Shown here: piece after piece, positions 46,076 to 58,121 of the stretch | Position numbering within the stretch: position 1 is the stretch's first letter | Layout of the letters: every line of letters starts with the position of its first letter | Assembly (NCBI RefSeq): GCF_022429565.1 | Contig: NZ_CP092487.1 | Location: 3,056,001 to 3,120,000 of the forward strand | DNA: 64,000 nt | DNA from: Lutibacter sp. A64 | Lineage (GTDB): Bacteria > Bacteroidota > Bacteroidia > Flavobacteriales > Flavobacteriaceae | Direction of reading: 5' to 3' | Position numbers and translations under genes: made by a program | The notes under the pieces: model-generated | The model's database searches: none | The model's input: only the letters and a program-made list of their open reading frames with translations | What the model was told of the DNA's origin: nothing

Positions 46076-46161
46076 TTCATTGAATGATATAACCAATTCA
46101 TTGATAAATATCTAGGACTAATTGATTCTTATTTACATAGAATACAATAATTTTTACCTTG
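46076..46161 (+). promoter_or_regulatory. Triple 21-bp-spaced repeats upstream of the redox operon
   Basis: TTCATTGAA (46076-46084), TTCATTGAT (46097-46105) and CTAATTGAT (46118-46126) are spaced exactly 21 bases apart, start to start. A -7-like TACCTTG follows at 46155-46161, and the ferredoxin ATG is 72 bases after the last repeat. Two-turn spacing of nonamers resembling [TA][AC][CA]GTTN[AG][TG] is the known form of LytTR-domain binding sites. Assignment to the LytTR regulator at 53852 is inferred. Confidence 0.65.
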
Positions 46162-46198
46162 TCTTTAAATTAGAGTTTAATTTTATAAATAAAGAATT

Positions 46199-46414
46199 AT
46201 GCCAATTAAAAGTATTAATGGATGTATTGGTTGCGAAGAGTGTATTAAAAGCTGTCCTACAGATGTAATTAGGTTAAATCCTGATTCAAAAAAAGCCGAG
46301 ATTTTATATCCAGAAGATTGTCAAATATGCCATTTATGCCGTATGTATTGTCCTGTAGATGCTATTACAATCACACCAGATAAATCTATACCAGTAATTG
46401 TATCATGGGGTTAG
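46199..46414 (+). CDS. Dicluster 2[4Fe-4S] ferredoxin
   Basis: The 71-residue protein has two CxxCxxCxxxCP sets: CIGCEECIKSCP and CQICHLCRMYCP. This is the bacterial 2[4Fe-4S] fold. It resembles the small ferredoxin subunits that feed flavoproteins such as APS reductase. It is first in an operon with a six-helix membrane protein and a Tat flavoprotein, so it probably relays electrons on the cytoplasmic side. Confidence 0.88.
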   Translation: MPIKSINGCIGCEECIKSCPTDVIRLNPDSKKAEILYPEDCQICHLCRMYCPVDAITITPDKSIPVIVSWG

Positions 46415-46416
46415 TT

Positions 46417-47046
46417 ATGAAAAATAAAAATTACATAAATAAAATAGTACTATTGGTTGTTGCTTTTATTGTTACGCCAATTGTTTTATACAACTTAGGT
46501 AATTTTCCAAAGAGAGGTTACCTTATGGAGACACTTTCACTAATAACCATTTTAGGGTTTACTTTACTTTTATCTCAGTTTTTTTTAACAAGAATTAATA
46601 GAGATTTAGTTAAAAGTATTAGAATGGTTAATGTTTTAAAAATTCATAAATTTATTGGCTATTTATTTATTTCAATTTTATTATTACATCCGTTTTTTAT
46701 TATTGTTCCAAAGTTATTCGACAATGGAGTTACACCTACAGATGCCTTTTTAAAATTAGTTACAACATATAGTAGTTTAGGAATTATACTTGGTTTAACA
46801 GCCTACTCTTGCATGCTTATAATTTTAGTTACTTCATTTTTCAGATTTAAATTGTATTTAAAATATAGAACGTGGAGAAATTTACATGGCTATTTAACCT
46901 TGCTATTTGTAATAACTGCAACTTGGCATGTAGTAAATATGGGAAGGCATAGTAATACTTCATTCGCAATTTATTATGTATTAATGGTACTTAGCGGAAT
47001 ATATTATTTGTTAAAAACTTATTTATTTAAAACTTCAAAAAAATGA
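46417..47046 (+). CDS. Ferric reductase-like six-helix membrane protein
   Basis: I take the ATG at 46417, two bases after the ferredoxin stop; an upstream ATG at 46405 would overlap that gene. The 209-residue protein has six predicted membrane helices. Histidines in HKFIGYLFISILLLH and WRNLHGYLTLLFVITATWH are spaced like the bis-haem ligands of the ferric reductase-like transmembrane domain (also NOX, YedZ/MsrQ). It lacks the FAD/NAD domains of full ferric reductases. It is likely to pass electrons across the membrane to the exported flavoprotein encoded next, with which it overlaps by 4 bases. Confidence 0.8.
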   Translation: MKNKNYINKIVLLVVAFIVTPIVLYNLGNFPKRGYLMETLSLITILGFTLLLSQFFLTRINRDLVKSIRMVNVLKIHKFIGYLFISILLLHPFFIIVPKLFDNGVTPTDAFLKLVTTYSSLGIILGLTAYSCMLIILVTSFFRFKLYLKYRTWRNLHGYLTLLFVITATWHVVNMGRHSNTSFAIYYVLMVLSGIYYLLKTYLFKTSKK

Positions 47047-48815
47047 AAAAGCAAAACAAAAAACAGGAAATGTCTAGACGAAAATTTATAAGCTTAGCGG
47101 GTGGAGCTGCTGCAAGTTTAGCTGCAATGTCGGCAATAGGAATGCCAGTAGACTGGGCTTTAAATAATCCTGAAATTGATGTTGATTCTTTAAATACAGA
47201 TAAAATTAAAACCGATGTATTGGTAATAGGAAGTGGAATGGCAGGTTTATTTGCAGCAGTAAAAGCACACGATGCAGGGGCAAAAGTAGTAATGGTTTCT
47301 AAAGGAAGGCTTGGTGCTTCTGGTCAAACACCTTTTGCTAAAGGAATTTTTGCTTTTGATCCAGAAAAAGAAGATTTAAGTTTAGATGAATTTGTTGCAA
47401 AAGTATCTCGTTCGGCCTTAGGTACAAATAATAAAGCTTATACAAAACAAATGGCGCAACATTCTTTAGCGCGTGTAAATGAGTTAAAAGAATGGGGCTT
47501 TTTTAATTCTTCATTATATAATAAAAGTTTTAGCAAACCTATTGAAGAAAGAAATATACCAGTGCAAGAGCGTATTACTATAACACATTTAATAAAAGAG
47601 AATGGGAGTGTTGTTGGTGCTGCTGGTTTTAGTATTGATACACAAAAAGTTCTATTTTATGAAGCAAAAAGCGTCATTTTATGTACTGGAGCAGGAGGTT
47701 TTAAACCAAACGGTTTTCCAATTTGCGATCTTACACACGACGGAACTATAATGGCTTACAATATTGGAGCAAAAGTAACAGGTAAAGAGTGGAATGATGG
47801 GCATCCTGGGAAATCTGAAAATGCAGCAGCGTGTTATGATGGTTGGGGAGATATGTTTGAACAAAAACCAAGTACAACAGGTGTTGAAATTCGCCATGAT
47901 TTAGGTGTGGATATGAATTATGTAGCTTATAAAAATGGAAGTCCTTTAAAAATGGGACCTCCTGGATCTGGTCAACAAACAGATGTTAGTGGAGGTCCTT
48001 ATACACCAGAAGAATTTACACGTCAAAATGCTACGCCACCGGGCGGAAAAGAAGGAGGAAGGCCACCAAGAGAAGGAAAAGGAGGTCCGCCAAAAGGAGG
48101 TAAAGGAGATGGAGCTCCTCCTGGAATGGGTGGTAGTATAGTTGGTGGTTCTTCTGCAGGAATGGCAATACATAAATCTGAAGGATTAGTACCAATTAAC
48201 GATCAATGTGAATCTACAATACCCGGACTCTATGCTGCTGGTGATGCGTTGGGTTCTTATATGGCAGGAGCAATTTATACTCAAATTGGTTCATCTTTGG
48301 CAGGTTCTGCTGTTCAAGGGGCTGTGGCAGGTGAAGCAGCTGCTAGTTATAGTAAAAAAATAAATACAGTTACAATTTCAATTTCAAAATTAAAAGAAAT
48401 TGAAGCAGAAATATTAGCGCCTTTAAAACTAGAGGCAGGTTATAGTCCGGCTTGGGTAACACAAACTTTACAAGGTATTATGATTCCTAATTTTATTATT
48501 TATATAAAAAAAGAGAATTTATTAAAAGCAGCCTTAGCTTATGTTGAAGAATTAAGAGACCATCATATACCAATGCTTAGAGCTGCAAATATGCACGAAT
48601 TACGTTTGGCACACGAAACTAAAAATATGATTGTTAGTGCTGAAATGAAACTAAAAGCGTCTATTATGAGAACTGAAAGTAGATGTAGTCATTATCGTTT
48701 AGATTACCCTGAAGTAGATACTGAAAATTGGGAAGTTTGGTTAAATATTTTTAAAGGTGAAGATAATACCATGCAGTTTGAAAAGCAACCTTTTAATACT
48801 TGGGCAACAACTTAA
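47043..48815 (+). CDS. Tat-exported FAD flavoprotein (fumarate reductase-like fold)
   Basis: The 590-residue protein has a twin-arginine signal (SRRKFISLAGG, Arg12-Arg13). An FAD-binding Rossmann motif VIGSGMAGLFAAVKAHDAG, the LGASGQTPFAKG segment and PGLYAAGDALGSYMAGA mark the succinate dehydrogenase/fumarate reductase flavoprotein family. The end has SRCSHYRLDYPEVDTENW, like the substrate-arginine region of that family. A Gly/Pro/Lys-rich insert (about 303-363, e.g. GKGGPPKGGKGDGAPPGMGG) is not usual for the family. No iron-sulfur subunit SdhB follows. Electrons likely come from the membrane partner; the substrate is unknown. Confidence 0.85.
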   Translation: MKKQNKKQEMSRRKFISLAGGAAASLAAMSAIGMPVDWALNNPEIDVDSLNTDKIKTDVLVIGSGMAGLFAAVKAHDAGAKVVMVSKGRLGASGQTPFAKGIFAFDPEKEDLSLDEFVAKVSRSALGTNNKAYTKQMAQHSLARVNELKEWGFFNSSLYNKSFSKPIEERNIPVQERITITHLIKENGSVVGAAGFSIDTQKVLFYEAKSVILCTGAGGFKPNGFPICDLTHDGTIMAYNIGAKVTGKEWNDGHPGKSENAAACYDGWGDMFEQKPSTTGVEIRHDLGVDMNYVAYKNGSPLKMGPPGSGQQTDVSGGPYTPEEFTRQNATPPGGKEGGRPPREGKGGPPKGGKGDGAPPGMGGSIVGGSSAGMAIHKSEGLVPINDQCESTIPGLYAAGDALGSYMAGAIYTQIGSSLAGSAVQGAVAGEAAASYSKKINTVTISISKLKEIEAEILAPLKLEAGYSPAWVTQTLQGIMIPNFIIYIKKENLLKAALAYVEELRDHHIPMLRAANMHELRLAHETKNMIVSAEMKLKASIMRTESRCSHYRLDYPEVDTENWEVWLNIFKGEDNTMQFEKQPFNTWATT

Positions 48816-48842
48816 AAAATTATTGATTAGTAATTTTACTTT

Positions 48843-48874
48843 GAAGAATCGGTTACTTCGGTAATCGGTTCTTC
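48843..48874 (+). terminator. cUUCGg hairpin downstream of the flavoprotein gene
   Basis: GAAGAATCGGTTAC (48843-48856), loop TTCG, GTAATCGGTTCTTC (48861-48874) pair over all 14 positions in plus-strand RNA, two of them as G-U. The closing C(UUCG)G is the ultra-stable tetraloop. No T run follows, so it may protect the 3' end of the operon mRNA instead of, or as well as, terminating. Confidence 0.7.
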
Positions 48875-48919
48875 TTCATTTAAAATTTCATTAAAATAAT
48901 CGTTTTATAAAACTAACAT

Positions 48920-48992
48920 TTGGTAGGTATTATACCTCAGTTTATTGATTTTAGTTTCAAAAATTATAAAGCATCACTTTCTTTGATGTAAG
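48920..48992 (+). promoter_or_regulatory. 21-bp-spaced repeats and -7-like box upstream of the DUF1566 gene
   Basis: TTGGTAGGT (48920-48928) and TTTATTGAT (48941-48949) are 21 bases apart. TTTCTTTGATGTAAG at 48978-48992 follows and is identical to the sequence at 50428-50442 in the next gene's promoter, at the same distance from the repeats. GATTTTAGTTT (48947-48957) is also shared at the same offset. The TTTCTTTG may be a -7 box with no good -33, as expected for an activator-dependent promoter. Confidence 0.65.
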
Positions 48993-49036
48993 GTTTAACA
49001 ATAAATAATATCCATAAAAAATTAAAATTTATTATT

Positions 49037-50293
49037 ATGAAATTAACAACAAAATTTTTAAGTGTTTTATTTCTTTCATTTTTAATTAGTGCAATTAGCT
49101 GTAGTGATGATGAAATTAATGGTACAGACACAAATTCTAATTCAGAATTAATCATAAATAATTACATTCAAATTGCTACAGGACAAACAACATTATACAA
49201 TAATGATGGTGAAGTATTAAGTAGTTTAAATACTGGAGATCGCTTTTACGGACAAGATGCCAATTACCAAAAAGGGGTAGCTATGTCTTTTAAAGATAAT
49301 AATGATGGAACTATAACAGATAATAATACGGGTTTAATGTGGGAACAAATACCTACACCTGATGAGTTTACTTGGGAAGAAGCTAAAGAATATTGCGAAA
49401 ATCTTGAATTAGGAGGCTATGATGATTGGAGATTGCCAAGCTTAAAAGAACTATATTCTGTTGCAGATTTTAGTGTCGGTTGGCCGTATATTGATACTGA
49501 CTATTTTGCATTAGCAAGTGGAGAAGTTTCTAAAGACGAGCAATTTTGGTCTAGTAATTTATATGTTGGCGTTACCGTTGAAGGTGGATCAAACGCTGCT
49601 TTTGGTGTTAATATTGTAACCGGACATATTAAAGCCTACGCAGCTTCAATGCCAGTAGATGGAGATATAGATGCTGGAACTCCTCCTGATTCTGGAACTC
49701 CTCCTTCAGCTGACGGAGATGGTATTCCAACTGGTAATCCTTTAGCAAAATATGTACGCGCAGTAAGAGGAGATACTTATGGTACTAATAATTTTGTAGA
49801 TAATGGAAATAATACTATTTCAGATAATAATACGGGTTTAATGTGGGCTAAAGAAGATGATGGTGTAGTATTAGACTGGGAAGATGCATTAGCGTATGCC
49901 GAAAATTCTGAATTAGCAGGTTATACAGACTGGCGTTTACCTAATGTTAAAGAACTACAAGGTATTGTAGATTACTCACGTTCTCCAACAGCAACTGATC
50001 CAGCAAATGTTGGACCTGCAATAGATCCAATATTTAATTGTACAGAAATGACAAGTGAAGCTGGATATGATGATTATGGTTATTATTGGACAAGTACGTC
50101 AGCTAACTTTACAAGTGGACAACCTTATTATTATGCCTGGTATGTTGCATTTGGTAGAGCTGTAAATGCAGAAGGTGAAGATTTTCATGGTGCTGGAGGA
50201 GTTCGATTTGATACTAAAGATGAAGATGGTCCTGCAGGAGAAGATGCCGAGCGTTATTTTAATTATGTAAGATTGGTTAGAAACATAAATTAA
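49037..50293 (+). CDS. Lipoprotein with two DUF1566 (Lcl C-terminal-like) domains
   Basis: The 418-residue protein has a signal with lipobox AISC (Cys22). Two DUF1566 repeats follow, each with an N-x-T-I-[TS]-D-N-N-T-G-L-M-W core and a W-R-L-P motif (about 95-220 and 250-415). A Pro/Gly-rich linker (GTPPDSGTPPSADGDGIPTG) joins them. DUF1566 is found in Legionella collagen-like adhesin tails and in many secreted proteins of unknown role. It is surface or periplasmic and preceded by the repeat element. Confidence 0.82.
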   Translation: MKLTTKFLSVLFLSFLISAISCSDDEINGTDTNSNSELIINNYIQIATGQTTLYNNDGEVLSSLNTGDRFYGQDANYQKGVAMSFKDNNDGTITDNNTGLMWEQIPTPDEFTWEEAKEYCENLELGGYDDWRLPSLKELYSVADFSVGWPYIDTDYFALASGEVSKDEQFWSSNLYVGVTVEGGSNAAFGVNIVTGHIKAYAASMPVDGDIDAGTPPDSGTPPSADGDGIPTGNPLAKYVRAVRGDTYGTNNFVDNGNNTISDNNTGLMWAKEDDGVVLDWEDALAYAENSELAGYTDWRLPNVKELQGIVDYSRSPTATDPANVGPAIDPIFNCTEMTSEAGYDDYGYYWTSTSANFTSGQPYYYAWYVAFGRAVNAEGEDFHGAGGVRFDTKDEDGPAGEDAERYFNYVRLVRNIN

Positions 50294-50308
50294 GTTTGGT
50301 TTAAATTC

Positions 50309-50349
50309 AGTCTTGTTATTTTACTAAAAATAACGAGACTTTCTTTTTT
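50309..50349 (+). terminator. Intrinsic terminator after the DUF1566 gene
   Basis: AGTCTTGTTATTTT (50309-50322) pairs with AAAATAACGAGACT (50327-50340), one pair being G-U, around ACTA, followed by TTTCTTTTTT. It makes the next gene a separate unit. Confidence 0.85.
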
Positions 50350-50369
50350 CAAACAAATGAAACATTGAT

Positions 50370-50442
50370 TTGGTTGATAAAATCAACTAGTTTGTAGATT
50401 TTAGTTTATTAACTCTACAAACCTTCGTTTCTTTGATGTAAG
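50370..50442 (+). promoter_or_regulatory. 21-bp-spaced repeats and -7-like box upstream of the LTXXQ-like gene
   Basis: TTGGTTGAT (50370-50378) and TTTGTAGAT (50391-50399) are 21 bases apart, followed by TTTCTTTGATGTAAG at 50428-50442. Layout and spacing equal those upstream of the DUF1566 gene. The first half-site has the GTTNAT core of known LytTR sites. Confidence 0.65.
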
Positions 50443-50479
50443 ATTAAAAAAAAGAATACTAATTTAAAAAATATAAATT

Positions 50480-50878
50480 ATGAAATTAAATAAAATAAAA
50501 GGTTTTAAAGTTTTAATTGTTGCATTAATTTTTTCAACTACAGCATTTGCTCAACAAAGAGGTGGGCAACGCGGAGGAGGACAAGGAGGGCAACAAGGTC
50601 CGCCAGCAGCACCAACTACAGAAGAAATTGTAAAAATGGTTGACGACCTTTCTAGTGAAATTTTATTGTCAGAAGAACAAAAAACAGAAGTGTTAACATT
50701 GTATAAAAAACACTTTGAGGAAATTGAAAGTAAGACAAGTTCTGGAAGACCAGATAGAGATGAAATGCAAGCACTAAAAGAAGATTTTGAAGATAACGTT
50801 AAAGCTGTTTTAACAGAAGATCAACAAAAGCTGTACACAGCTTATCTAAAAAAAAATACTAAAAAAAGAAGATCATAA
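50480..50878 (+). CDS. Small secreted LTXXQ/Spy-like protein with Gly/Gln/Pro-rich N-terminus
   Basis: The 132-residue protein has a signal peptide ending AFAQ. A low-complexity stretch (QQRGGQRGGGQGGQQGPPAAP) follows, then a helical domain with LSEEQKTEVLTLYKKH and LTEDQQKLYTAYL, repeats that recall the LTxxQ motifs of Spy/CpxP periplasmic stress proteins. It ends in a basic KKNTKKRRS. It may be a periplasmic chaperone or metal/stress sensor of this cluster. The match is by motif only. Confidence 0.65.
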   Translation: MKLNKIKGFKVLIVALIFSTTAFAQQRGGQRGGGQGGQQGPPAAPTTEEIVKMVDDLSSEILLSEEQKTEVLTLYKKHFEEIESKTSSGRPDRDEMQALKEDFEDNVKAVLTEDQQKLYTAYLKKNTKKRRS

Positions 50879-50917
50879 AGTAAGTTTGAATTAATAAATG
50901 TTTAGGTTAAGTTTAGG

Positions 50918-50956
50918 CTCCAATAATTATATTTTAATTATTGGAGTTTTTTTTTT
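50918..50956 (+). terminator. Intrinsic terminator after the LTXXQ-like gene
   Basis: CTCCAATAATTA (50918-50929) pairs exactly with TAATTATTGGAG (50935-50946) and is followed by ten T. Confidence 0.88.
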
Positions 50957-50972
50957 AATGCTTATTTATGTT

Positions 50973-51038
50973 TTCGTAGATAAAAAACGCCAGTTCATTG
51001 ATTCTTTTTTAAAAGTATATCTAAAAAATAGAATTTCG
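50973..51038 (+). promoter_or_regulatory. 21-bp-spaced repeats upstream of the CotH gene
   Basis: TTCGTAGAT (50973-50981) and TTCATTGAT (50994-51002) are 21 bases apart. The second equals the middle repeat before the ferredoxin gene. TAGAATTTCG at 51029-51038 sits where the -7 box lies in the other three promoters. The CotH ATG is 71 bases after the last repeat. Confidence 0.65.
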
Positions 51039-51073
51039 CTCAAGATTAATAACAACTAATAAATAGCCATAAA

Positions 51074-52531
51074 ATGAAAACACCATTTTTAATAAAAACA
51101 AGTCTTTTGGTATTGTCTACTTACTTTTTAGTGAGTTGTACAGATGATACTAATACAATTGCAGATATAGAAACAGAAATTGGAGAAGGTACTAATACAG
51201 AAGTACAAATAACTGATTTAGATTTTGAACCAACAGATTGGACTGAGGAAACACATAGTAAAAATGTAGACCCAAACTTTGATGAGGTATTTAGTAATAC
51301 AGAAGTAAAAAGATTTGATTTTGTTATTTCAGAAGACAATTGGGAAGCAATGCTAAATAATATGACTGATTTATATGGAAATTTTGGAGGTACATTTAGT
51401 GGGCCTGGTGGTTCATTTCCAGGAGGAGGAACTGCTTCTGTTTCTTCAGATGAAGACCCTATTTTTGTTCCAGGTTCTGTGTATTACAACGGTAAAGAAT
51501 GGTATAAAGTAGGTTTGCGTTTTAAAGGAAACTCTAGTTTACAAAGTTCTTGGCAAGCTGGTATTTTAAAATTGGCTTTTAAAATGGATTTTGATGAGTT
51601 TGAAGATGATTATCCACAGATAAAAAATCAACGTTTTTACGGGTTCAAAAAATTTAGTCTAAAAAATAATTATGATGATAGCTCATTTTTAAGAGAGAAA
51701 GTAGCTACAGAAGTGTTTCAAAATGCTGGGTTAGCAGCTTCAAATACGTCATTTTATACACTTTATGTAGATTATGGAGATGGACCAAAATATTTTGGAT
51801 TGTATACTTTGGTTGAAGAGGTTGATGGTACTGTAATTGACACTCAATTTTCTAGCGATGAAGGAAATCTGTACAAGCCAGAAGATTATGGGGCAAGTTT
51901 TGAAGAAGGAACATTTAATGAAGAAGGGTTTACCAAAAAAACTAACGAAGATGAAGCTGATTGGACAGATATTGAAAATGTATTTTCTGCTTTACACGCA
52001 ACAACAAGAACTACAGATGCCGCAACTTGGAGAACTAATTTAGAAGCAGTATTTGATGTAGATACATTTTTAAATTATTTAGCCGTAAATACAGTAATTC
52101 AAAATTGGGATACTTATGGTAGAATGGAACATAATTACTACCTATACAACAATCCAGAGAATAACTTAATAACGTGGATTCCTTGGGATAATAATGAAGC
52201 CTTACAAGAAGGTAAATTAGGAGGGTCATTAAATTTAAATTTCTCAGACCTTTCAAGTGGAGATTGGCCTTTAATTGAATATTTATATGATGATGAAGTA
52301 TATAGAGCTAAATACGATAGTTATGTACAAGCAACAATTGATGGGCCTTTTGAAACAAGTTACATTCAAGGAGTTTACGATACATATTCGAGTTTAGTAG
52401 AACCGTATGCAACTACAGAATTAAGTGGTTTCTCATTTTTAAGTAATAGCAATTCGTTTTATTCTGCAATTTCAACATTAAAAGCACATGCTGCAAGTAG
52501 AGCATCAGCTGTAAATAATTATTTGAATTAG
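51074..52531 (+). CDS. CotH-family lipoprotein kinase
   Basis: The 485-residue protein has a signal with lipobox LVSC (Cys22). The CotH domain runs from about 70 to 430, with VGLRFKGNSS, FYGFKKFSLKNNYDD, SFLREKVATEVFQNAGL, YFGLYTLVEEVDG and ITWIPWDNNEAL, the family's conserved segments for nucleotide and metal binding. Spore-coat CotH of Bacillus is an atypical protein kinase; extracellular relatives occur in many bacteria and fungi. A Gly/Pro-rich loop (GGTFSGPGGSFPGGG) interrupts the N-terminal part. It is expected outside the inner membrane. Confidence 0.88.
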   Translation: MKTPFLIKTSLLVLSTYFLVSCTDDTNTIADIETEIGEGTNTEVQITDLDFEPTDWTEETHSKNVDPNFDEVFSNTEVKRFDFVISEDNWEAMLNNMTDLYGNFGGTFSGPGGSFPGGGTASVSSDEDPIFVPGSVYYNGKEWYKVGLRFKGNSSLQSSWQAGILKLAFKMDFDEFEDDYPQIKNQRFYGFKKFSLKNNYDDSSFLREKVATEVFQNAGLAASNTSFYTLYVDYGDGPKYFGLYTLVEEVDGTVIDTQFSSDEGNLYKPEDYGASFEEGTFNEEGFTKKTNEDEADWTDIENVFSALHATTRTTDAATWRTNLEAVFDVDTFLNYLAVNTVIQNWDTYGRMEHNYYLYNNPENNLITWIPWDNNEALQEGKLGGSLNLNFSDLSSGDWPLIEYLYDDEVYRAKYDSYVQATIDGPFETSYIQGVYDTYSSLVEPYATTELSGFSFLSNSNSFYSAISTLKAHAASRASAVNNYLN

Positions 52532-52540
52532 TTTAGTTTT

Positions 52541-52592
52541 AATATCTTTGTTCGTGTTTTTTAATTAAAACATAGACAAAGATATTATTTTT
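52541..52592 (+). terminator. Probable terminator after the CotH gene
   Basis: AATATCTTTGT (52541-52551) pairs exactly with ACAAAGATATT (52576-52586), with ATTTTT after it. The 24-base loop can form a second small stem. Confidence 0.6.
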
Positions 52593-52745
52593 GATTGTTT
52601 ACAATATGGCATTTTTAAACTGAACTTATTTTAGCAATTCTTCTCTATTTAAAAAATTAGAACTAAGCTTTAGTTAACCAATACATTTTAGACTTACAAA
52701 TTAAAATGTTTTATATAAAGAATTTTAGTAAGTATACTATAAAAA

Positions 52746-53855
52746 ATGAAACTTATAAAGAAAAATTACAATTTCGCATCTTTTGAACCTTTTATAATTA
52801 TTGCCTTTTGGGCATTATTATTTGCTTCTCCTTTATTGTTTGGTCGTTATGAAAAACAAATAGAATGGGATCAAGTTTTTAAGGTTTGGATAAATTATTT
52901 ACCTTTATTAGCTTTGTTTTTAGTAAATAGGTTTATACTACTTCCCAAGCTTTTTTTTAAGAGTAAAAAACTATTGTATTTTGTTGTTACTTCATTAGTT
53001 ATTTTAATTATAGCAACAGGAATTTATTCTTTTGATAAAAATAATGATATTCCTAATTTAGAGCCTCCGGTAATGGAGTTACAAAAGGGAAATCCACCTC
53101 CAATACGCCAAGGGAGAGATTTACCTCCACCCAAAAACCTTAGGTTAGGCAATAGTCCTAGGCCAATACCATTGTATGCTAATTTTTTGATTTTAGCGGT
53201 TTTATTGGTAGGGTTCGATGCTGGTTTGCAAATTTCAATGCGCTGGGCAAATTTAGAGCAAGAAAAATTTAAAATTCAAAAAGAAAGTGTAGAAAATCAA
53301 TTGGCTTTTTTAAGAAACCAAATCAGTCCACATTTTTTTATGAATACACTTAACAATATTCATGCGCTTGTTGATATTGATACTGAAGAATCTAAAAATG
53401 CAATCATTAAATTGTCTAATTTAATGCGTCATTTATTATACGATTCTGAAGGAAAATCAACTTCAATAAAAAAAGAAATTGAATTTATTGAAAGTTATAT
53501 TGAATTGATGAAACTTCGTTTTTCAAGCAAAGTGAAAATTAATGTTGAAATTCCTTCAGAAATACCTGATAAATCAATTCCGCCATTGTTGTTTACTTCA
53601 TTATTAGAAAATGCTTTTAAACACGGTGTAAGCTATAATAAAGACTCTTTTATTAATATTTTAATGCGTTTTACTGAAGATAAATTGCAATTTGAAATTG
53701 AGAATAGTAACCATCCTAAAAAAGACGATGAAGCTTCAGGAATTGGTGTAGAAAACACCAAAAAAAGATTGGCTTTATTATTTAAAGATAATTTCGATTT
53801 TAAAATCTCTGAAACTAAAGAGGTTTACAAAGTTAATTTAAGTATACCGTTATGA
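52746..53855 (+). CDS. LytS-type sensor histidine kinase
   Basis: The 369-residue protein has four membrane helices (about 15-35, 48-66, 74-95 and 140-160), with a Pro-rich loop (GNPPPIRQGRDLPPP) between helices 3 and 4. Then comes the His_kinase domain with QISPHFFMNTLNNIHALVD (phospho-acceptor His) and an ATPase with LLENAFKHG and GIGVENTKKRL. The short loops make it likely to sense membrane or ligand state. It overlaps the response regulator gene by 4 bases. Confidence 0.9.
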   Translation: MKLIKKNYNFASFEPFIIIAFWALLFASPLLFGRYEKQIEWDQVFKVWINYLPLLALFLVNRFILLPKLFFKSKKLLYFVVTSLVILIIATGIYSFDKNNDIPNLEPPVMELQKGNPPPIRQGRDLPPPKNLRLGNSPRPIPLYANFLILAVLLVGFDAGLQISMRWANLEQEKFKIQKESVENQLAFLRNQISPHFFMNTLNNIHALVDIDTEESKNAIIKLSNLMRHLLYDSEGKSTSIKKEIEFIESYIELMKLRFSSKVKINVEIPSEIPDKSIPPLLFTSLLENAFKHGVSYNKDSFINILMRFTEDKLQFEIENSNHPKKDDEASGIGVENTKKRLALLFKDNFDFKISETKEVYKVNLSIPL

Positions 53856-54565
53856 TAAAATGTATTGCAATAGATGATGAGCCATTAGCTTTAAGGCAAA
53901 TTACAAGTTATATTGATAAAACACCTTTTTTAGAACTTCAAAATAGTTTTGAAAGCGCCATTGAAGCATTATCTTACCTTCAAGAAAATAGTGTAGAATT
54001 AATGTTTGTAGATATTAATATGCCCGATTTAAATGGAATGGACTTTGTAAAATCTTTAGAAAATCCTCCTAAAATTATTTTTACAACCGCATATAGCGAA
54101 TATGCCTTGGAAGGCTTTAAAGTTGACGCCTTAGATTATTTATTAAAACCTATTGATTATGCAGCATTTTTAAAATCTTCAAACAAAGCAAAATCTTGGT
54201 TTAGTTTACAAAATTCTAAACCCGAACAAATTAATAGTAATAACGATTTTTTATTTATAAAATCTGAATATAAAATTTTACGTGTTAAATTAAATGATAT
54301 AAAGTATATTGAAGGAATGCGTGAATATGTGCGTATTCATTTAATTAATGAAAAGCCAATTATGACCTTGTTAAGTATGAAAGTTGTAGAGCAACAATTA
54401 CCTAGCGATAGTTTTATGCGTGTGCACCGTTCTTTTATTGTAAATTTAAAAATGATTACAACTATTGAACGCAATAGAATTGTTTTTGACAAAGTTTACA
54501 TTCCAATAAGCGAACAACATAAGGAAGATTTTCAAAAATTTATAAATAATAATTTTTTATCATAA
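53852..54565 (+). CDS. LytTR-family response regulator
   Basis: The 237-residue protein has a receiver domain (about 3-120; acidic IDDEP, phospho-acceptor Asp in MFVDINMPDLNG, LKPIDY) and a LytTR DNA-binding domain (about 135-235; IKYIEGMREYVRIHL, MRVHRSFIVNL). LytTR domains bind two direct repeats two helical turns apart. Four such sites precede the four transcription units just upstream, so it is their likely regulator. No such repeat was found before its own operon. Confidence 0.92.
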   Translation: MIKCIAIDDEPLALRQITSYIDKTPFLELQNSFESAIEALSYLQENSVELMFVDINMPDLNGMDFVKSLENPPKIIFTTAYSEYALEGFKVDALDYLLKPIDYAAFLKSSNKAKSWFSLQNSKPEQINSNNDFLFIKSEYKILRVKLNDIKYIEGMREYVRIHLINEKPIMTLLSMKVVEQQLPSDSFMRVHRSFIVNLKMITTIERNRIVFDKVYIPISEQHKEDFQKFINNNFLS

Positions 54566-57827: not shown

Positions 57828-58121
57828 ATGAGTAAAACAAAAAGGTACGACAAGGAATTTAAGATTATGTTAGTAGAATTAATGCTCTCAGGTCAGAGTG
57901 CAGAAGATTTGGGGAAAGAATATGGTGTCCATTCTGCAAGTATACGCAGTTGGAAAAGATCCTATTTATCAAACCGAGAATCTTTTACAGGTTCAGGAAC
58001 TCCGAGCTTAACACCAGAAGAAAAAGAGATTCGAGAATTGAAAAGGCGTCTTAGAGATGCTGAGATGGAGAGGGATATCTTAAAAAAGGCGGTGAGCATC
58101 TTCTCCAAGAACGACAGGTAA
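57828..58121 (+). CDS. IS3-family transposase OrfA
   Basis: The 97-residue protein is a helix-turn-helix DNA-binding protein (YDKEFKIMLVELMLSGQSAE, LGKEYGVHSASIRSWKRSY) followed by a leucine-zipper-like helix (IRELKRRLRDAEMERDILKK). An A6G slippery run at 58082-58088, read A-AAA-AAG in this frame, would let ribosomes slip by -1 into the OrfB frame, giving the OrfAB transposase. Confidence 0.9.
   Translation: MSKTKRYDKEFKIMLVELMLSGQSAEDLGKEYGVHSASIRSWKRSYLSNRESFTGSGTPSLTPEEKEIRELKRRLRDAEMERDILKKAVSIFSKNDR

Follow-up and report, generated by a model that had tools for sequence, protein, structure and literature searches.

We found that four transcription units of Lutibacter sp. A64 are preceded by direct nonamer repeats with a period of 21 bp. 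Taken together, the evidence makes it very probable that these pairs are the sites of the LytTR response regulator encoded at 53852-54565, which would activate the four units via its kinase-regulator pair. A compact LytTR-controlled regulon had been proposed in an earlier sequence-only reading. It finds support in the conservation of the sites, in their constant geometry and in their linkage to the regulator gene, all of which, like the sites themselves, can be read directly from the DNA.

Promoter geometry in the window

The window, a stretch of 64,000 nucleotides, carries nine nonamers upstream of the four units (Table 1). All of them are present where the sequence-only reading had placed them, with 0-2 mismatches to TTCRTWGAT, and the period claimed for each promoter is exactly 21 bp in 4/4 cases. 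The ferredoxin promoter has three repeats and the other three have two. The start codon distances of 71-87 bases given in that reading agree with the 72, 87, 80 and 71 bases that we measured from the last repeat to the ATG. The -7-like box described behind the repeats has the same offset in 4/4 promoters, 58 bases counted from the first base of the promoter-proximal pair (46155, 48978, 50428 and 51031). The Lcl_C (DUF1566) and LTxxQ-like promoters do share a sequence at the same offset, as had been noted: TTTCTTTGATGTAAG starts at the box offset in both. The name LTxxQ-like refers to the LTEDQQ of the protein encoded at 50480-50878; family and fold comparisons did not show it to belong to the Spy/LTXXQ chaperone family.

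Table 1. Features of the cluster, in window positions.
Feature	Position	Strand	Remark
Third, promoter-distal repeat TTCATTGAA, ferredoxin promoter	46076..46084	+	
Half-sites TTCATTGAT (46097), CTAATTGAT (46118), ferredoxin-operon promoter	46097..46126	+	3 mismatches to composite
-7-like box TACCTTG, fixed offset 58	46155..46162	+	
Two-cluster 4Fe-4S ferredoxin, redox operon gene 1	46199..46414	+	Fer4
Membrane protein, Ferric_reduct family	46417..47046	+	
Fumarate/APS-reductase-like flavoprotein, twin-arginine start, Gly/Pro-rich insert	47043..48815	+	
Terminator-like hairpin separating units	48843..48874	+	
Half-sites TTGGTAGGT (48920), TTTATTGAT (48941), Lcl_C promoter	48920..48949	+	3 mismatches to composite
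-7-like box TTTCTTTG, Lcl_C promoter	48978..48985	+	
Exported protein, two Lcl_C (DUF1566) stretches	49037..50293	+	
Terminator-like hairpin after Lcl_C gene	50309..50340	+	
Half-sites TTGGTTGAT (50370), TTTGTAGAT (50391), LTxxQ-like gene promoter	50370..50399	+	1 mismatch to composite
-7-like box TTTCTTTG, LTxxQ-like gene promoter	50428..50435	+	
Small exported helical protein, LTEDQQ, LTxxQ-like	50480..50878	+	no Pfam match
Terminator-like hairpin after LTxxQ-like gene	50915..50949	+	
Half-sites TTCGTAGAT (50973), TTCATTGAT (50994), CotH promoter	50973..51002	+	2 mismatches to composite
Weak -7-like box GAATTTCG, CotH promoter	51031..51038	+	
CotH kinase-family protein	51074..52531	+	PF08757, E 3e-68
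LytS-type histidine kinase, Pro/Gly-rich stretch in N-terminal half	52746..53855	+	His_kinase PF06580
LytTR response regulator, putative reader of every site	53852..54565	+	

An exact TTCRTWGAT pair occurs once in the window and not at all in shuffles, and with at most 3 mismatches per pair there are five, all inside the four promoters. These five also pass a refined dimer (refined on the window sites and the relatives' sites themselves) at up to 1 mismatch, where an independent-base model expects 2.7 matches per 4 Mb on both strands. A genome-wide search, suggested with the sequence-only reading, gave four matches to a composite pattern at up to 3 mismatches in the 4.03-Mb genome, all at this cluster. 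The spacing in the window alone depends on stringency. At most 2 mismatches to TTSRTWGAT yield 7 pairs at 21 bp and no more than 3 at any other spacing; at most 3 mismatches yield 13 at 21 bp, 13 at 17, 11 at 12 and 11 at 25, so that 21 bp is not singled out. Specificity is lost with a loose exact dimer, TTNRTWGAT-N12-TTNRTWGAT: it is present in 26/38 genus genomes, and two of its four matches in this genome lie outside the cluster, both within open frames (497 and 241 codons).

Conservation within the genus and recurrence beyond it

An orthologous regulator (75-93% identity) is encoded in 10/36 same-genus relatives, and the conservation in relatives that had been named as a check was found, with pairs preceding the cluster's transcription units in these ten genomes. 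From the ten loci and the window we aligned 37 sites, located before LTxxQ-like (10), CotH (9), ferredoxin (6), VTC (6), Lcl_C (3), DUF4956 (2) and Cthe_2159 (1) genes. They were picked by hand, and the promoter-proximal pair was taken where three repeats are in phase. Two sites of locus L010 (934, 4218) and a diverged ferredoxin site of L007 (4289) were left out; all three have a CTTT box at the same offset. Nonamer conservation in this set is partly circular because the sites were first selected by nonamer likeness, whereas the -7 offset is free of this circularity. The aligned sites have a 9-12-9 bp geometry with TT at columns 62-63 in 37/37, and nonamer position 7 is G in all 74 half-sites, partly by site choice.

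The orthologous loci contain 36 forward pairs at 21 bp and 0-2 at other spacings, except for two overlap shoulders, and 21 bp is favoured over 34 other spacings. On the reverse strand of these loci no 21-bp pairs were found. A third repeat, matching at 7 or more of the 9 positions, is present in 5/6 ferredoxin promoters versus 1/31 other sites; over all 37 sites, its offset of -21 (6) does not rise above -29 (7), -33 (6) and -40 (6).

Sites precede the first gene of a unit. In L007 and L009, which lack VTC and have CotH directly next to DUF2490, DUF4956 is preceded by a site and CotH is not, and in genome G024 a target relocated about 50 kb away retains its site 85 bases before the ATG. The regulon appears to be larger in relatives, where it would also take in VTC/DUF4956/DUF2490 and Cthe_2159. 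CotH is found in the same 11 genomes as the regulator, with a remnant in G004. Sites, targets and regulator are present or absent together in the genus, and hence co-occurrence there cannot separate the regulator from its neighbourhood.

We also considered whether a paralogue system of 54% identity (G000:C1:984514 with its six relatives; L011-L017) uses the same site, and rejected this, as its seven loci have no 21-bp pairs at up to 2 mismatches. With an iterated matrix, L013 reaches a score of 20.0 and L015 one of 24.9. The second half of these matches ends in TAT, and the paralogue may therefore have a diverged site. Stray composite matches were likewise set aside: those in G002, G010, G021, G023 and G029 are one common 3-mismatch sequence within open frames of 350-791 codons (5/5), and those in G019 and G020 also lie inside open frames. 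The reversed composite pattern gave 1 match in 38 genomes.

Beyond the genus, a 66-base promoter layout is recognisable from Lutibacter to Prevotella. With a genus-only matrix, sites scoring at least 14 were found in 40 of 80 distant LytTR regulator loci (controls 3, 0 and 0), and the other 40 had none at this threshold. These loci were picked by the LytTR protein only, and they combine the same layout with other target genes. In distant pairs chosen without the -7 columns, TAnnTTTG stands at exactly offset 58 in 25/39. Genus-trained dimers scoring at least 20 gave 7 forward and 0 reverse pairs at 21 bp in the 80 loci, with mostly 0-2 at other spacings and 3 at 37; a lax score of at least 14 gave 27 forward pairs at 21 bp versus 1-13 elsewhere, as well as 12 reverse pairs at 21. 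A scan with the iterated matrix (69 sites at 18 or above versus 1.3) is circular, and the genus-only figures are preferred. The iterated matrix also placed sites before Lcl_C and CotH genes in G124, a genome of another genus with a 73% identical regulator. An order-wide composite search returned one 3-mismatch match each in G067, G181, G218 and G241.

The regulator and its kinase

The regulator has an N-terminal receiver domain (PF00072, E 8e-19) with an invariant phospho-acceptor Asp, D54 (11/11 aligned), and a C-terminal LytTR domain (PF04397, E 1e-19). The FhRhHRS motif described for LytTR DNA-binding domains (PMC4227749) is found as FMRVHRS at 188-194, again in 11/11 aligned. The domains of the predicted structure match ComE and AgrA (4cbv, 3bs1); the matches of a second comparison were receiver domains and added no information on the LytTR part.

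The kinase carries a His_kinase domain (PF06580, E 1e-23) with PHF..N, and its SPHFFMNTLNN is invariant in 10/10 aligned. Its N-terminal half is presumably a membrane sensor. LytS proper carries a 5TMR_LYT sensor domain, which is absent among the Pfam matches of this kinase up to E 1. The kinase gene starts 214 bp after the CotH gene, and autoregulation via the same site was rejected for this window, as the best score upstream of the kinase gene is -6; unlike here, sites do precede kinase genes in several distant loci. As a separate observation, Gly/Pro-rich segments are common to a loop of the kinase and to several exported targets, namely the flavoprotein, CotH, Lcl_C, LTxxQ-like and Cthe_2159 proteins.

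Regulator residues 157 and 158 sit in a strand-strand loop of the structure model and are associated with bases of the nonamer, judged on iterated-matrix sites (score of at least 24, 61/91 loci). With R/K at 157, C makes up at least half at nonamer position 5 in 0/27 loci, and with S/N in 26/34; with D at 158, it does so at position 6 in 6/6, and with E in 3/55. These associations correspond to 3 and 2 changes on the tree. As proof of a regulator-site match the co-variation failed, because so few changes are independent.

Proposed circuit and its relation to known systems

In the published description, LytTR sites consist of repeats, direct or inverse, that are 9-11 nt long and separated by 11-13 nt (PMC4847170). 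The assignment of the nonamer pairs to this type is supported, since 9-bp repeats with a 12-bp gap fit the published length and spacing; two 9-bp direct repeats 12 bp apart are the usual form of a LytTR site. The same source says that sites of LytTR domains lack a common consensus. The likeness to a LytTR consensus quoted in the sequence-only reading is borne out, with at least 7/9 positions matching in 62% of the 74 half-sites versus 6.9% of window nonamers.

We infer that the kinase would sense an envelope signal and phosphorylate the regulator, a dimer of which would bind directly to both repeats on one helix face. The repeat centres would lie at about -66 and -45 relative to the predicted start site, immediately ahead of a poor -33 region, and the bound regulator may help the main sigma factor to use the poor -7 box. 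The redox operon (ferredoxin, Ferric_reduct membrane protein and exported flavoprotein), Lcl_C, the small LTxxQ-like exported protein and CotH would thereby be switched on. A more far-reaching version, which we regard as doubtful, is an envelope circuit common to the Bacteroidota. In it the kinase would monitor its own products via a common ligand or mutual binding, as a product-sensing feedback, and regulator residues 157-158 and the nonamer would have co-evolved so that each lineage has a site of its own. The Pro/Gly-rich stretch of the kinase and the Gly/Pro-rich segments of the targets might then share a ligand or bind each other.

It is improbable that the LytTR protein binds the sites but represses the units, or acts both ways. 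Site position alone is no proof of activation, and AgrA is reported to keep bsaA low through a site located downstream of the bsaA promoter (PMC4227749). Here, however, a fixed distance separates the sites from the -33 region that follows them, and the boxes at -33 and -7 depart in the genus from TTTG and TAnnTTTG, respectively, as would be expected of activator-dependent promoters. Still less probable is that another regulator reads the repeats and the LytTR gene is a mere neighbour. Linkage alone cannot discriminate here, as the genus has regulator and targets in the same genomes, and a LytTR query has 21 matches in this genome. Against this, the part of the window from the sites to the LytTR gene showed no other regulator gene, distant loci chosen by the LytTR protein repeat the layout with other targets, and repeat length and spacing agree with LytTR sites (PMC4847170). 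Chance or A/T-rich structural elements with no protein reader are strongly disfavoured, to the point of being nearly dismissible: the genome is A/T-rich and loose matching gives neither a clear excess at 21 bp in the window alone nor a dimer confined to few genus genomes, but the strand-specific 21-bp pairs of the orthologous loci, absent from the paralogue loci, the fixed -7 offset in distant loci and, partly by site choice, the invariant G argue otherwise.

LytTR activation remains our preferred reading, and comparable promoters are known. Those of AgrA, ComE, YpdB, VirR and HdrR/BrsR carry, as here, two repeats 9-11 bp long with 11-13 bp between them (PMC4847170), and in S. mutans and other LytTR systems the -35 box is likewise preceded, at a distance of a few bp, by direct repeats (PMC6193735). 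Compared with AgrA/ComE-type promoters, the present ones have a Bacteroidota-type -33/-7 promoter, an invariant offset, other targets and, in most ferredoxin promoters, a third repeat. The Bacteroides 'LRS-like' operons, also from Bacteroidota, likewise place direct repeats ahead of a promoter, the end of which reads TATCTTTG (PMC6193735, Table 3). Their repeats are 11 bp long and 11 bp apart, a 22-bp period, whereas ours are 9 bp long at 21 bp, and the distance from the repeats to the TA of the -7 box is about 34 bases (summed from that table) versus 28 here. Their LytTR proteins have transmembrane segments and presumed autoregulation (PMC6193735), in contrast to the LytS-type kinase and receiver-LytTR protein of this cluster. 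An LRS consists of a LytTR protein and an inhibitory membrane protein, with no kinase (PMC6193735); we rejected membership, as a receiver was found in the regulator and a histidine kinase domain in its partner.

CotH, polyphosphate polymerase and DUF4956 genes form a group beside Gram-positive pel loci (PMC7112168), and NELoc-2 of C. perfringens contains VTC and CotH genes (PMC2879425). CotH and VTC families, with DUF4956 in the pel group, are grouped there and in the window's relatives. LytTR control, proposed here, is not mentioned for either group in the passages concerned (PMC7112168, PMC2879425).

We did not find a description of a regulon of the redox operon, Lcl_C, LTxxQ-like and CotH genes in the literature, and the published account of LytTR sites in Bacteroidota that we found is that of the Bacteroides LRS-like repeats (parts of PMC6193735). 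One circuit would tie together CotH, VTC, DUF4956, DUF2490, Cthe_2159, Lcl_C and the redox operon. Moreover, the residue-to-base association may offer a testable code for the LytTR domain, and the 66-base layout a handle for reading the regulons of Bacteroidota LytTR regulators.

Repeat pairs in the cluster and its relatives

Nine nonamers close to TTCRTWGAT, spaced 21 bp apart before four genes, had been claimed by the sequence-only reading, and all nine are present (Table). With up to three mismatches per pair, five 21-bp pairs occur across the 64-kb window, all within the four promoters. When a looser unit is combined with three mismatches, other spacings are equally frequent in the window alone, and a loose exact dimer is found in 26 of the 38 genomes of the genus, with two matches outside the cluster in the window genome, both in open reading frames. 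Because loose matching yields these other spacings and outside matches, the window taken alone is only suggestive.

The LytTR protein was searched against sixty genomes, 36 of them same-genus relatives, and an ortholog at 75-93% identity was found in ten of the 36; among the matches listed, the best outside those ten reached 55%. We compared the neighbourhoods of all ten ortholog loci and of seven paralogue loci. CotH, kinase and LytTR genes are adjacent in 10/10 ortholog loci, with HflX beside them in eight, while ferredoxin, Ferric_reduct protein, flavoprotein, Lcl_C, LTxxQ-like, VTC (PF09359), DUF4956, DUF2490 and Cthe_2159 genes vary. The ortholog loci hold 36 forward pairs at 21 bp; other spacings give 0-2, save 17 (9 pairs) and 25 (17 pairs), an excess attributed to TTGATT overlap within the unit. 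No 21-bp pairs were found on the reverse strand of these loci or in the paralogue loci. Comparison of the promoters in related genomes, proposed together with the original claim, found repeats and spacing conserved across the ten ortholog loci and, at the level of sequence, settles the reality of the repeats. Judging from G036, a relative with duplicated target genes, the regulon seems to have grown by local duplication of genes together with their promoters. The sister system of the paralogue loci may use a diverged site that ends in TAT (L013 scores 20.0 and L015 24.9).

A composite of repeat pair and -7-like box, allowing up to three mismatches, matched in 16 of 38 same-genus genomes: the 11 that carry the ortholog (counting the window genome) and five without, which have one 3-mismatch sequence in common that lies in coding DNA in each of them. 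Exactly four matches occur in the window genome, all in the cluster; G024 has one about 50 kb off, with a displaced LTxxQ-like gene following after 85 bases. CotH occurs in the same 11 genomes, with a 3' remnant in G004, and the flavoprotein in 9/38, all among the 11. Since both are confined to the same genomes, the cluster is gained or lost as one unit in the genus, and presence or absence alone does not tie the site to the regulator. The G004 remnant looks like a decayed cluster copy at the same place; no kinase or LytTR match was found in the 9 kb fetched around it. Across 296 genomes of the order, the regulator was found at E <= 1e-85 only in the window genome and G124, and the composite in six, these two and four with single 3-mismatch matches. 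By the iterated, circular matrix, Lcl_C and CotH genes of G124 are preceded by sites whose second repeats include AACGTTGAT and AACATAGAT.

Coordinates of features in the window and in compared loci
Location	Position	Feature
Window	46076, 46097, 46118; 48920, 48941; 50370, 50391; 50973, 50994	Nonamers of the four promoters
Window	~46002-46031	Extra hairpin ahead of first promoter (by reading the sequence, not from the scan)
Window	48843, 50309, 50915	Terminator-like hairpins between units (hairpin scan)
Window	46199-48815	Operon: ferredoxin, Ferric_reduct-type membrane protein, Tat-type fumarate/APS-reductase-like flavoprotein
Window	47043-53855	Kinase and four exported targets with low-complexity segments rich in Gly and Pro
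Window	57828-58121	ORF resembling an IS3-type transposase OrfA; adjoins tetratricopeptide-like and kinase reading frames on minus strand
G036	L001:3615-7507 (cluster orientation)	Lcl_C and LTxxQ-like genes, two of each; a listed site lies upstream of three, and the fourth abuts an LTxxQ-like gene
G009	L010:4218 and 934 (cluster orientation)	Two further sites, each with CTTT box at fixed offset: one 278 bases before LTxxQ-like gene, behind another site; one before 96-codon ORF
G004	L106:4824-6438	CotH 3' remnant (query residues 361-485) directly beside HflX
L011-L017	e.g. G000:C1:984514	Sister kinase-LytTR system, 54% identical, conserved in part of genus

A fixed promoter layout

A gap-free alignment of 37 sites chosen from the pair listing reads TTSRTWGAT, RAAW, a CCAG-like spacer end, TTYRTTGAT, T, four bases, TTY, twenty bases and T..CTTTG, ahead of a unit's first gene. 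The TT of the -7-like box occupies columns 62-63 in 37/37 sites, and TTTG itself stands at offset 62 in 24/37, elsewhere in single cases (offsets from the first base of the promoter-proximal pair). Outside the 37, a like box at the same offset also follows three sites, one of them ahead of the L007 ferredoxin and the others in L010. A third repeat occurs in five of six ferredoxin promoters versus 1/31 other sites; over all sites, offset -21 is not above its neighbours. According to PMC7366714 and PMC2483708, the -7 element of Bacteroidota promoters is TAnnTTTG and a TTTG lies near -33; RNA-seq data from F. johnsoniae did not show the -33 element. Both boxes are imperfect at the candidate sites, as one would expect of activator-dependent promoters.

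The layout extends to distant relatives. Scanning a sequence collection with the LytTR alignment gave 580 confirmed loci, of which the best 80, 49-70% identical, are labelled mostly as Bacteroidota (Prolixibacteraceae, Flammeovirga, Bacteroides, Parabacteroides, Prevotella, others), a few being assembled genomes labelled otherwise. A matrix from same-genus sites only found a site (score >=14) in 40 of these 80, compared with 3 in reverse-complemented, 0 in reversed and 0 in complemented controls. Among distant-locus dimers selected independently of the -7 box, TAnnTTTG starts at exactly the expected offset 58 in 25/39, with at most one at each other offset. Downstream lie, partly by the iterated matrix, the kinase-LytTR operon itself and Cthe_2159, Lcl_C, LTxxQ-like, VTC, DUF2490 and CotH genes.

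Regulator, targets and proposed mechanism

The regulator combines a receiver with a LytTR domain, and its predicted structure is similar to ComE at full length and to the LytTR domain of AgrA; with a mean pLDDT of 76.9 and a pTM of 0.48, the way the domains are arranged is unsure. In 61 of 91 loci with an iterated-matrix site score >=24, R/K at residue 157 pairs with T at nonamer position 5 (C makes up half or more in 0/27 loci) and S/N pairs with C (26/34); C at position 6 accompanies D at residue 158 (6/6) but not E (3/55). Both residues lie between predicted strands 150-155 and 160-164 and correspond in the alignment to FFESSTKSHRL of AgrA, a loop that we take to hold AgrA's base-reading His169. 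Because these traits change just three (157) and two (158) times on the tree, a possible residue-base code is a lead.

Ranked by Gly+Pro per 30 residues, the top five window ORFs are the flavoprotein (20), CotH (13), Lcl_C (13), kinase (12) and LTxxQ-like protein (11), the median of all 51 being 6. Genus-locus medians are 17, 13, 9, 11.5 and 10, respectively, 6 for unlabelled ORFs and just 4 for VTC, DUF4956 and DUF2490. In the best 80 of 580 distant loci, values >=11 occur in 32/80 kinases, 15/21 Cthe_2159 and 4/6 CotH proteins and in 39/812 other ORFs; Lcl_C (3/10) and LTxxQ-like proteins (0/3) do not follow the trend. Gly/Pro enrichment common to kinase and exported targets is only a hypothesis, because the pattern was sought after the proteins had been seen.

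If transcription starts about 12 bases downstream of where the -7 box begins, the repeat centres would fall near -66 and -45; promoter-proximal AgrA repeats are centred near -60, according to PMC4227749. The usual LytTR site, as outlined in part of PMC4847170, has 9-11 bp repeats with 11-13 bp between, and the present sites are alike in repeat length and gap, so the cis-element belongs to a known kind. Most likely, the kinase would signal to the LytTR regulator, a dimer of which would bind upstream of -33 and activate the four units. Among the titles and abstracts brought up by searches of open-licence PubMed Central, none dealt with the regulon; the part that appears new is the regulon and the wide extent of one fixed layout.
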